NCBI RefSeq assembly: GCF_019059575.1 | Contig: NW_024882315.1 | Span: forward strand, 124,001 to 188,000 | Direction: 5' to 3' | DNA length: 64,000 bases | Source of the DNA: Amphibalanus amphitrite | Lineage: Eukaryota; Arthropoda; Thecostraca; Balanomorpha; Balanidae | Part shown: in pieces, positions 16,201 to 25,200 of the stretch | Layout: each line of letters opens with the position of its first letter | Position numbering within the stretch: the stretch's first letter is position 1 | Position numbers and translations under genes: made by a program | The notes under the pieces: model-generated | Seen by the model: the letters and a program-made list of their open reading frames with translations, nothing else | Told to the model about the DNA's origin: nothing | The model's database searches: none

Positions 16201-19200
16201 GACGCGAATGTGGGCCAGCGGCCGGCAGCCGGCGGCCGCTAACACTGTATGAGGATGAATGCACGGAACTTTTGCTTGTTGGAGATTGCGCTAGGCAGTT
16301 AAATGTTAATGTTAGGATATGTTTCGAAAGTAAATTGAACGACGCTTCGAACGCCGTCAATGAATTTGAGATACGACGACTATTTGTTTAGTTAGAGCCG
16401 GCGAACTTTTACCTTCCGACCGCGCGGGGGAGGCGATATGGTGCCACACTGACGGTTTTTACGACAGCTCAAAATTCTTTTGAGCTAAAGAGCTGAAATT
16501 TGACATGTCCAATCTTTTGATCAAGCTGGATCTTCTGGTACAAGTCGCATATTTAAGGTACGTCAGGTTGTTGACCTATGTTGTCGCTCGTGAGCCTCTA
16601 CACAGTCCAAAAACAACGCAATTTCTGAACACTCAGTGCCAAGAAATCCTTCACAGAAAGATGACACTTGGCAGAAAGAATGACTGTCGGTTTCTTACCG
16701 TTCCTATGTGTCGTGTTTTCACAAGAATTTAGTAAGGTCAGGTCCCTCACGTCACCTCCCCTCATAACTCAATAGAACTAGGTTTACTATCATAGAAGCG
16801 TTTATCAATCGCCGGAAATCTTAGCCAATCCCACTGGACACTGGATCCATACCCACCGGCCACATGGGGCCCTCCTGACTGGCCACTCCCTCTGAAATCC
16901 ACAATAACATTGGGCTGCAGCCATGGTTATGTATTAATGCTTTTCACTAACAGAAATACAACTTCAACCAGCACAATGCACGCCGCCACAACAGTCCGAC
17001 CAACGTCCCTGATATCGACTAGCACTCGGCCGGATGCACATTGCACATATGCGGAGCCAATCAGTCCAAATGTGACCTGCAGCTTACAATTGCTGTGTCG
17101 CATGGCGCATGGCACAGGGCGATTCCTAGCAGCTGTCGGCTGGAGTGGAGAAACAGCACGTTGCGACACACCGCGCCGGCGACAGAGCTCAGCAGGGCTG
17201 GTTGGAGGCTGGAGCCGGAGGTAAGGACGGACACAGGCACAGACATTGCAGGACAAATAACAAGATGTCAGTTAGGGATATAGTTCAAGACGAATGATTC
17301 AAGACGGACTGAAATAATGTACATTTTGCTCACTTGGATACCAACTTCAAACTTGACGTTTATAACGGAAACAATGGCCACACAGGAAAGAAACAAAAGA
17401 TGAGGTGTTTTTAACTCAAAGTAAATAGAGGTTGCATAAGATGGAACAGCCCGAAGTGCAGACAAGCACATATTTTTGGTAATAGCTATCAGCTGTCCTA
17501 CTCCTCTTCTCCCTTCATCAACTACTGGACACATCTGAAGCATCATATAATATAGGTAGCACCAATGTCCATAACAAAAGCTTGCAAAGTAGTTTTATGA
17601 AGCCAAGGGAAATATGCCTATTGCATTTGCCTACATCATGCATGTGAACTCAAAATTACACATGCATGACAAAGGAAGCTTATGTAAAGAGAAGAGTTGG
17701 CAAAAGCATTTCATAGTTAAAATTATTCAAAACTGCACACAGGGCAAACATAAAAAGCAGCAAGTGTGCTGTTCTGTTATGCTAAGAAATAGTCCAAAAC
17801 AAAATACATCTTTTCATGTTTGAACTGGTTGTTCTTCTATGCCACTTCATCCATATCTTGATTACAGATGGGCTGTTGCTGTAGGCTGATGAAGTGACAC
17901 TTGATTGCCTTTGTGCGAGTTTCAGTTGCAGCCTCCTAGGTACTGCACTGGAAAGCAGATTGAATTTACTGCCTCTGAAAGATAGGAATACAGGCAAAGT
18001 TAGCTGTAGTAGTGTCAATGATAATAGACATGACATTTTTGTCCTTTGACATACATTTGTTGAAGTACAAAAAGGTACAATATAAATTGGTTTGTTTCAA
18101 GACACGCACACTGCACAAAGCCGCACAGACATTACACAGGCATATGAAATTGGTACACATAAAGATTGATGATTAAAAAGGTCAAAACTTGCAAAAATAA
18201 TTGAAGTAAAAGTTACAATCACAATCATTTGATTTAAAATGACTTGGCATAAGTCACAAGACGCAACGCTCCTATTCTTTTATGCTTTCATTATCCTCCA
18301 CATATCAACCAGCTTGATACCAGGCCGTGCAATAGTGTGTACATAACCCCATGTTGCCATTTTATTAGTGCAAGTGGGGTTACAACAACAATGCTAATGT
18401 CAAACCCACATCTGCAACCCGTACTGCAGTTTCAATCACCTTACAAGCACACCTTCTGGCAGTTTGATAGGCAGAATGGTCATTACTACTTTCCCCTCAT
18501 ATTCAACACATATTCCCTTTATACAGATACAGTTTAGACCTGGTTATGGCAAGCATTTTCGAGAAAAGATATGATTTAAGTCCAAGACAAAGGTCGAGAG
18601 AAACAACACCAACATAAAACACCGACTATGTAGCACTAATACTGTCAAATTCATAAAAATATATACATGAGTCGATCAGAAATTCACTGTAGATTTCGAA
18701 AATGGTGTCAAATGCCACTCAAATACCCCCATTCGCATGTACGAAGCAATAAAACACTGACCTTCAATTCCGCGTGCCATTCTCCATAGGCCACTGTGTA
18801 TTAAATAACGCGTTCACTGATAGCGAAAAATGAGACCCACATATGACGCGTTTGCTACCAGCCAATCAGCGCCCGAGTTGCCGAACGCTGATTGGTGGAG
18901 AGGGCCGTCGTTAGCAGTTAATTACACGTTGTTTTCCTTGAACATGAGCGTGAGCGCTGATGCTGCTCACGGGCTGTTGCCATTTTTCGTAATGCTGAAG
19001 GCACGGGAGCGAACCCCCCTGGCCGGCGGTGATACCGGTCAGCGTTCGACGCGTATATTCGAATGCAGTATGAGTAGAGCATGGGTCCCGAAAAATTCTT
19101 CAGAAACTAGAGAAATTCTCGCGGGGCAGGACGTCTGTCAAACTAGCAGCGAGCTGCGAGCAGCGAGTCCAGCAGCGAGAAACGGGCCATCCCGATTTAG

Positions 19201-22200: not shown

Positions 22201-25200
22201 CCCTGTGGCCCGGTCATGGGTGTCGAAAACTTTAGAGGGTTCTATCTCGAGAACGGTAAAGATTCCCACCCTAGAGACCATGATTTTCGGAATCAGCGTG
22301 CTGAGAAAGCTCTGTGAGCAAATTTTCAGCTAAATCGGGATGGCCCGTTTCTCGCTGCTGGACTCGCTGCTCGCAGCTCGCTGCTAGTTTGACAGACGTC
22401 CTGCCCCGCGAGAATTTCTCTAGTTTCTGAAGAATTTTTCGGGACCCATGCTCTACTCATACTGCATTCGAATATACGCGCGTTCGACAGTCGATTTTGG
22501 AGTTTGTGGTAGTGACTGTAGACATTAACGCTAGGTATCTTAGTGCTACGGTTGAAAAAGGCTGAGATTTACGTTGGTTTGATGTAGCATTCCAGCTACT
22601 TCATGGCGTATTAGATAGCGATTTCTTTAGTCAGTTGTTTCACTCTAATAAACCTGCAGTTAAGCCGATCACACTACACTCCAGCCGGAAAGAACGTCTT
22701 GTATGTGCTGTCTACTGTACCCGCGCTGTGTACTATGCTTACTTCACCGTCTCTGCCGGGCCACACTGGCCGCCACTCCGTCTCTGTCTGCTGCCTCTGT
22801 ATTGCATTTTATGCTAACCCCACCGTCTCTGCCGGGCCACACAGGCCGCCACTCCGTCTCTGTCTGCTGCCGCTGTATTGTATTCTATGCTGACCCCACT
22901 GTCTCTGCCGGGCCACACAGGCCGCCGCTGCGTCTCTGTCTGCTGCCGCTGCTGAAGTCAGTCCAGCTGGAGGGGAACGCGATGCGCTCGGTGCGCCGTG
23001 ACCTGCTGACGCGCAGCACACAGCAGCTGCTGCGCCACTTCAGGTGAGACCCCCGAGCGGTGGAGGCATCTCGCTGACAATGGGTGGGCGGGACTGGGCT
23101 TAGTTCTTCAATGTGGGTGTAACTGGGTAGTGGCATAGCCGAGCTCGCCATTTCTTTTCTTTTCGGGCACATATGACTTAACAATAAACGTTTCATGACC
23201 TCTCAATCAAGTAAGATTGATAGTTTTATTCGCACTTTAGCTTAATACTCTGAGGCACATGGCTTAAAGCCCGCAGTTTCTGGCCGTGTGTAGCTTCTAT
23301 GACCACCAGCTGCTCCACCCCAACTCCGCACTGAGTGTTAGAGTAGCGCCGCGAACAGTGCCGTTTCTGTTGGCCGACCCAGCTCGACTGATGACCTGTT
23401 TTGCACCCTATCTCCCTGTCTAAAGAATTGACATATGCGCATCTCAGCCGCCATTTATTGGTCACTTTTTCGTGAAGGCTGTGGCGAACGGCTTCAGCCA
23501 AATTGATGGCTTTTGCTTTGCTTCTAATGGTACGGTGCTTTCTCAAATCTTTGGCATACCGATATCTTAACAGCTGTTTTTTTCCTAACAGGGATGAACT
23601 GTAAGCAGCGTTTAGGACTGTAAGGTTTGACTGTCTCGCCTTCGTTGTGGGACGACGCGGTTCGATTCACATCAGTATCTACTGTAGAATGGAATGGAAA
23701 TGATACTGATAAACGCCGCGTACCCACACTGCATGTTTAATTTTGATTTGACGATGTCCGTTCTGACACTTGTGTTTTGTGTTGTTGTTTTTCGTTGCGA
23801 TAGTAAGCTTGTTGCGATATTTTAAGTCACATTTATATTGTTGTTTGTGTTAATATGTTTCTTTTAGTTATTTGACACATCACTGACTCATTGAAATCCA
23901 GAACAATTCATTCCATCTGTCTACAGATTGTGTGAACAAAAATGAATGTGTAGTAGTCAATGCAGTCAATGTCGTTTGGTTACAGTCTTCCGCTTTATGT
24001 CGTCTGCTTGTCCACCGTCATATTTTTGAGTTTGTTGTGGCTGTCAATTTTTTGTCATAATTTTCCTTTTCCTTCATGAAGCCTGTCTACCAATACAGTA
24101 TCACTGTGTGGTATGCATATTGCATAAGTGCAAAATGACACGGCATTGCCCTGAATTGCGTCTGCGCAATATGACTGTAATGTTCCAGTGCTACACTGAA
24201 AATTCAATCAATGTAGCTTTACGTATGATTTTTTGCTTTGTTCATTTGAAGCTGTTTGGTGGATGGTTCCAAATGCTGGCTGTTTCAGGCTGTATAAGAT
24301 AACCTTGAGTCTAAATTTTAAACGCCTGCAATGTAGATGACGCCCACCCAGTCGATTACATCGACATCGGGACGCCGTATTTTGTGAGGATGTTGATATG
24401 AGCTAATTACAGTCACGCTTGGGATGTGTTTGTCTGGTCATTTGTAACATTGATGACCGTCGTCCACCTGCCGGGCTGTGGGACCCACTCTGTTCGGTAT
24501 GCCACTCTCCTTCATCCGTTGCTGTGGCTGTTTCCGCAGCGGCCCCGCGCCCCGCTGCCACTTGTCTGTCGTCTGACTGTCCGTCTCGCGCAGGGAGCGT
24601 CTCCAGGGACAGGCGGCCGTCGAGGGACTGCTGATCCCCGGTCTGAGTGACGCCGGCGGCGGAGGGCCCTGTGACGTGCCCGACAGCCAGGCGGCCGAGA
24701 GAGACCGGCTGCACGAGGTGCACAAGGTGAGTGGGGATGGACCAAACTCGCAGCGGGAGAGTGAGAAGGCGACACGAAAGTGGGTCATTGTTGTCATGCT
24801 GTGCCCTATGTGCCATCTTAGCGTCTGCCTAACGAATGCATTGACTCGCCCTCCCCGGCTTCTGCCCAGATGAAGAGCAGCCGGCTGCTGTCACACAGCG
24901 GACAGAAGGCGACAGAGATTCCGGGCGACCTGTTTGCCATGGGTCAAGAGGCTGAGGTCACGACGGTCGACTTCAGCAAGAACATATTGACCAGCGTGCC
25001 GGCAGACAAGTGAGTTTGGTGTGCAGCGGTGCGCATGCGCGGGTAAAATCAGAGAGACCAAAATGCATCGGCCGGGAATCGAACCCGGGCCGCCCGCGTG
25101 GCAGGCGAGCATTCTACCACTGAACCACCGATGCCTTATATTGCGTGTAGTCAGCTGTCTTCGCGGGGGCCGGCGTAGGAGCGACGAGGAAAGTACCTGC

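Follow-up and report, generated by a model that had tools for sequence, protein, structure and literature searches.

Foldback (FB) elements of Drosophila carry inverted repetitive arms and 9-bp target-site duplications (TSDs), and some copies contain a NOF gene of the Mutator-like element (MULE) type. Tetris from Drosophila virilis, described as non-autonomous, has long inverted termini composed of an outer flanking domain and variable tandem repeats of ~220 bp; its TSDs are 8-10 bp long, its terminal parts are common to the array-less miniature inverted-repeat transposable element (MITE) DAIBAM, and neither a transposase nor an autonomous copy is known for it (PMC4079207). Here we analyse an element of 3,429 bp (19051-22479) that lies in an intron within a stretch of 64,000 nucleotides from the barnacle Amphibalanus amphitrite (contig NW_024882315.1, positions 124,001 to 188,000), this whole stretch being referred to as the window. 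The element is flanked on both sides by GCGTTCGAC and belongs, with high confidence, to a young family of Foldback-like DNA transposons that are non-autonomous and move by cut-and-paste. The family is apparently undescribed, a provisional statement, and of a kind known from flies and nematodes.

With FB the barnacle family shares the inverted arms and the 9-bp TSD, but its terminus and its repeat units are different. Like Tetris, the barnacle family is non-autonomous, carries its repeat arrays behind an outer domain and has yielded no transposase in the copies read, and its array-bearing and array-less forms resemble Tetris together with DAIBAM. It differs from Tetris in its host and in its unit of 135 bp, the two being set apart by description and not by comparison of their sequences. 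In addition, its outer domain measures 132 bp as against up to 866 bp, 26 two-ended array copies stand against three structurally complete ones, and 37 bp of the Tetris unit recur in its outer domain, whereas the barnacle unit has no such match. Tm1 from Meloidogyne also combines composite inverted termini containing tandem repeats with 9-bp TSDs and MITE-like relatives; unlike the barnacle family, however, it has repeats of ~14 bp and asymmetric 7-bp end motifs, and one of its copies is known to encode a Phantom-like MULE transposase (PMC3169594). Galileo of Drosophila is similar in its long, internally repetitive inverted termini and in having copies with mismatched TSDs (PMC2775673, PMC3573991, PMC3688188), but it belongs to the P superfamily and makes 7-bp TSDs, whereas those of the barnacle family are 9 bp long in 24 of 28 copies, which sets it apart from P and Galileo elements.

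The assembly searched, of which the window forms a part, comprises 807.55 Mb in 2644 contigs. A 373-residue frame of the window matches an A. amphitrite protein with 98% identity over 92%. In the assembly the 18-bp terminus of the family, whose termini are GCGTATATTCGRATGCAG, has 46 exact matches (21 forward, 25 reverse), and its reversed control has none. Among 19 pairs of termini, the window copy included, 17 are enclosed by a perfect 9-bp TSD. Adding seven further two-ended copies, five with and two without arrays, brings this to 22 of 26, and adding L030 and L031, whose second ends are slightly unlike the 18-mer, to 24 of 28, i.e. 26 copies with arrays and two without. The chance of identical 9-bp flanks is about 4e-6 for one copy. 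Outside the count stand L028 and L029, in which the first bases of one end are missing, a copy on contig C2472 represented by a single end, and C1822, a duplicate of the C128 locus (99.6% over 12.6 kb). The G+C content of 22 perfect TSDs is 66%, compared with 52% in the 150-bp flanks.

The first-pass annotation, made from the window alone, had proposed a Foldback-type transposon with a 9-bp TSD, and the copies collected from the genome bear this out. It had also named two refuting outcomes, other copies lacking TSDs and a structure assembled in error from collapsed palindromic reads, and neither holds for the family. Inverted arrays are indeed hard to assemble, and the unit counts of single copies may be misassembled. 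At the level of the family, however, such an artefact is refuted, because 24 of the 28 two-ended copies have perfect TSDs; moreover, the copies are dispersed over many contigs with different TSDs, the loci checked contain no N, and nested insertions vary from copy to copy, and we regard this explanation as extremely improbable. Equally little credit can be given to an immobile satellite or segmental palindrome that expanded in situ: the 135-bp arrays and the hairpin turn exist as it would have them, but it is refuted by perfect duplications at dispersed sites and by a turn sequence common to 22 of 24 typed array copies. The features by which a Foldback-like element is recognised, namely tandem-repeat inverted termini, TSDs and many mobile copies with variable arms, were all found.

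In alignments of 2.7-2.8 kb, scored by column with indels ignored, the window copy has 99.0% identity to L014 and to L026, 99.1% to L011 and 98.5% to L012, from all of which it differs further by whole units and nested insertions. The 132-bp terminal domain shows 98-100% identity in the best 40 of 335 candidate places. Because the window copy and the copies aligned with it are near-identical, the family is to be considered young.

Several observations weigh against the transposon interpretation as given here. Four of the 28 two-ended copies (L016, L017, C123 and C4) have no matching TSD; in C123, 6 of the 9 flanking positions are the same on both sides. Ectopic recombination was tested as a source of the mismatches, and the eight 9-bp flanks of these four copies form no pairs in either orientation (by eye), so that no inversion pair was found. 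No autonomous copy was found among the copies read, leaving the class of the transposase unproven. Finally, the 135-bp unit is no more like the terminal domain than shuffled sequences are, and transposase sites within the units therefore lack sequence support.

In the window copy (Table 1), the outermost 274 bp of the two ends are perfectly identical in inverted orientation, forming a terminal inverted repeat. The outer ~70 bp of the left terminal domain are common to the array-less family (by eye). None of 200 shuffles folded as well as the turn (z -6.1). The inverted termini, the 135-bp arrays, the turn at 20403-20439 and the flanking 9 bp had been noticed in the first pass and lie where it placed them. 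One point needs correction: the right arm is broken up by two later insertions, which give it a shorter and irregular look. With their duplications counted in, these measure 341 bp (20639-20979) and 260 bp (21946-22205), and both are missing from the four aligned copies L014, L011, L026 and L012. The smaller contains a 252-bp MITE that we take to be hAT-like from its terminus and TSD length. The host gene, presumably LRRC40-like, lies on the + strand, with leucine-rich-repeat exons before the element (to ~16035) and after it (~22950).

Table 1. Features of the element and its immediate flanks, in window coordinates
Feature	Position	Strand	Basis or remark
Left TSD, GCGTTCGAC	19042..19050	.	identical 9 bp at 22480-22488
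Left terminal domain, 132 bp, starting GCGTATATTCGAATGCAG	19051..19182	+	not tandemly repeated
Left arm, 9.2 copies of the 135-bp unit, types A D B F E H G C	19183..20426	+	Tandem Repeats Finder and unit typing
Palindromic turn, 14-bp stem and 9-nt loop	20403..20439	.	folding
Innermost portion of right arm, rearranged unit	20440..20638	-	sequence comparison
Later nested insertion, 339 bp plus apparent 2-bp duplication (TC), ends CCCAGCAAACATG...CATGTTTGCTGGG	20639..20979	.	duplication by eye
Right arm, 7.2 copies of the 135-bp unit in opposite orientation to the left arm	20980..21953	-	Tandem Repeats Finder
Later nested hAT-like MITE (presumed), 252 bp (CATAGGCGCGGGA...TCCCGCGCCCCTG), plus 8-bp TSD TGGCCCGG	21946..22205	.	
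Outermost 135-bp unit of right arm, cut off from the others by the hAT-like insertion	22206..22347	-	
Right terminal domain	22348..22479	-	matches left domain over entire length
Right TSD, GCGTTCGAC	22480..22488	.	identical to left

Two of the two-ended copies, C435:510373-511995 (1,623 bp) and C128:302549-304924 (2,376 bp), have the same termini over ~70 bp (by eye) and 9-bp TSDs and contain no 135-bp array. With the first 405 bp of the C435 copy as a query, the best 40 of 1203 candidates are 98-100% identical, and two short pieces on C376 were also retrieved at 89-91%. The GGATG terminus variant GCGTATATTCGGATGCAG has 109 exact matches (control 0). The 100 places listed of these 109 include 43 pairs of neighbouring forward and reverse termini, and 26 of the pairs span 1.5-2.2 kb. 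All of the latter coincide with places found by the C435 query, except those on C46, C476, C924 and C981, and the 22 coinciding pairs are therefore of the array-less kind. The same variant also bounds array copies (C43, C54 and C123). Read from the candidate counts, which come from queries of different length, the array-less family is apparently the more numerous one. As ~70 bp of terminus are shared, a single transposase probably moves both families in trans.

The TSD of 9 bp falls within the range of the Mutator superfamily, 8-11 bp (PMC6446971). The transposase is thus most likely of Mutator type, an assignment made from TSD length alone. Merlin elements make TSDs of 8-9 bp and the P element one of 8 bp. 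A transposase other than a classical MULE, either of the MULE-related Rehavkus or of Merlin, might move the same element, which we think possible though on the unlikely side. Rehavkus is the nearest alternative to the Mutator assignment. It combines 9-bp TSDs with minisatellite sequence, Rehavkus-1_TC having 164-bp tandem units in its inverted termini, and it encodes a PHD-finger transposase (PMC6446971, PMC10218199); no transposase was recognised in the barnacle copies read. The first-pass annotation had suggested looking for a larger copy with a MULE-type transposase, and none was recognised among these copies. A genome search for the MULE domain PF10551 gave 111 matches from the best 150 of 204 candidates. 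Eight contigs hold both a match and a listed terminus, the nearest pair being on C4, and no match lies less than 63 kb from a listed terminus, which is in keeping with Rehavkus or Merlin; the listed termini include 100 of the 109 GCGTATATTCGGATGCAG places, and this comparison would miss any autonomous copy whose terminus has diverged.

For Merlin there is an open reading frame (ORF) of 336 aa on C435 (L032:1668-2675) with an IS1595-type, Merlin-like domain (PF12762, E 2e-17); its product and an A. amphitrite protein are 99% identical over 92%. This ORF (505645-506652) was considered as the transposase of the family and rejected, for the array-less element begins at 510373, i.e. ~3.7 kb further on. 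The Merlin-type gene is thus outside the element, and neither it nor a Rehavkus gene was recognised inside any copy. By eye, no transposase was recognised among ORFs 150 aa or longer from L009-L034, C123, C4, C54, C43 and C1, nor among those of the window or of the two array-less copies. Fifteen frames were compared with Pfam: the Merlin-like one of L032, a retrotransposon frame of L023, three others and ten from nested inserts or arrays. Matches were obtained for the frame nested in L023, which belongs to a long-terminal-repeat retrotransposon, and for the Merlin-like ORF outside the C435 element; the three others and the ten nested-insert or array frames (L013, L015, L016, L019, L025 and C1) gave none above the curated cut-off. 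C123 contains frames that look retrotransposon-like (by eye). The listed GCGTATATTCGGATGCAG pairs longer than 2.2 kb number 17, of which the three array copies C43, C54 and C123 were read fully, nine were left unread and five were sampled (401 bp from the middle of C374, C446, C909 and C1031, and 4.9 kb of C1538), with no transposase-like frame seen by eye in the samples.

Taken together with the Mutator-type assignment, the following mode of transposition may be envisaged. A transposase made elsewhere, most likely Mutator-type by the 9-bp TSD, would bind the shared ~70-bp ends, excise the element and reinsert it with a 9-bp staggered cut. The 135-bp units might supply internal binding sites or merely hitchhike, their number shifting by unequal exchange or slippage, and both ends might occasionally be rewritten together through gene conversion between the arms or repair templated by the hairpin.

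For the anatomy of the arms, 363 units in 24 array copies, L030 and L031 standing outside, were typed by clustering at 5% distance. These copies measure 1740-9880 bp, nested insertions included, and vary in arm length. One order that recurs reads A D B F E H G (B) C in the arm to the left of the turn, with A D B F E A C as its counterpart in the opposite arm. The run D B F E occurs in both arms of 6 of the 24 copies, and the pair H G in 10 left arms and no right arm, from which it follows that outer units can be mirrored and that some inner units are arm-specific. An asymmetric 31-mer from the turn was found with 0-1 mismatch in all typed copies except C123 (6 mismatches) and C4 (14). L018, L024 and L016, which may go back to one common origin, have gained the block E H G B and A D as well, and these gains point to unequal exchange or slippage as the probable source. 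Agreement per position across units is 95-99% in 15-bp bins, one bin being at 83%. The possibility that the unit derives from the terminal domain was considered and rejected, the local alignment score being 16 compared with a shuffle mean of 15.9 and a 95th percentile of 20.

The two ends of a copy appear to change together. Most variants that define subfamilies sit at both ends, for example A to G at base 12 in C123, C54 and C43 and G to C at base 15 in C4 and C1. L022 was left out of the variant counts because an insertion ~25 bp from one end misaligns its row, and L019, with one end also disturbed, was retained. Within bases 1-132, all 12 copy-private variants are found at one end only; variants shared by at least two copies make up 27 copy-variant cases, of which 18, from five columns, involve both ends. 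Permuting the partners of ends gave none of 20,000 arrangements with a distance as low, both for bases 1-18 and for bases 1-132; this test and the following distances include L022. The mean distance over bases 1-132 is 0.027 within copies, as against 0.055 between right ends and 0.036 between left and right ends. It appears that homogenisation of the ends accompanies the rise of a subfamily and weakens inward, and that later mutations strike single ends.

Not all of these data favour concerted ends. Nine of the 27 shared cases in bases 1-132 are at one end only, and the within-copy mean is not below that between left ends (0.017). In the first unit the concerted pattern is weak: of 61 cases of shared variants, 16 involve both ends and 45 a single end, and private variants stand once at both ends and 78 times at one; the permutation p is 0.043 there and 0.21 for bases 271-400. 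As the cases are few and related, concerted ends are suggestive. Such a pattern would result from gene conversion between the arms or from repair templated by the hairpin. In Galileo two copies have been described with ends alike within a copy and unlike between copies (PMC2775673, PMC3573991). We offer it as a tentative and rather improbable idea that the inverted arrays allow both ends of an element to be rewritten together: conversion from arm to arm would hold the ends identical and carry a new terminus variant to both simultaneously, with an effect that is strongest at the tips and declines inward, and some inner units would remain arm-specific. If this were true, new ends for transposase recognition would evolve as matched pairs, which would help to explain the repeated rise of Foldback structure in unrelated superfamilies. 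Under the same tentative reading, the transposase could come from a superfamily so far unlinked to Foldback structure.

A search of open-access text, carried out without Repbase and Dfam, gave no description of a Foldback transposon from barnacles, and a 2026 survey of arthropod MULEs does not mention barnacles in its main text. The suspicion of the first-pass annotation that the family is undescribed is consistent with this literature. With 26 two-ended array copies, typed units and an array-less sister family, questions raised by Tetris and Galileo become testable, such as the origin of internal repeats, the matching of the two ends and whether arrays aid transposition. In addition, insertions of this fouling barnacle that are apparently young, among them the intronic one described here, may serve as polymorphic markers.

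Some further repeats were encountered in and around the copies. Insertions ending in CCCAGCAAACATG / CCCAGTAAACATGCC recur in the arrays with apparent 2-bp target duplications (some of these by eye): nine, of 1.1-4.4 kb, are found in five other copies (two in L013, three in L015, one in L016, one in C43 and two in C1), and the 339-bp insertion of the window copy has similar ends. L022 has a 2.9-kb insertion in one terminus, and its end sequence ATGCTGAAGGCACGGGAGCGAACCCCCCTGG is also present at 18992-19022 of the window, so that the window element seems to adjoin, on its left, another repeat carrying this sequence. A different tandem array with a period of ~134 bp occupies C2472:20855-23539 (L041/L034), on the contig that also holds the one-ended copy. 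Immediately before the next leucine-rich-repeat exon of the host gene, a 76-bp tandem repeat spans 22733-22951 (2.9 copies, 91% matches). Finally, an inverted pair of ~610 bp, 92% identical, at 44009-44616 and 47302-47920 suggests an element with long terminal inverted repeats around 44-48 kb of the window (44009-47920).

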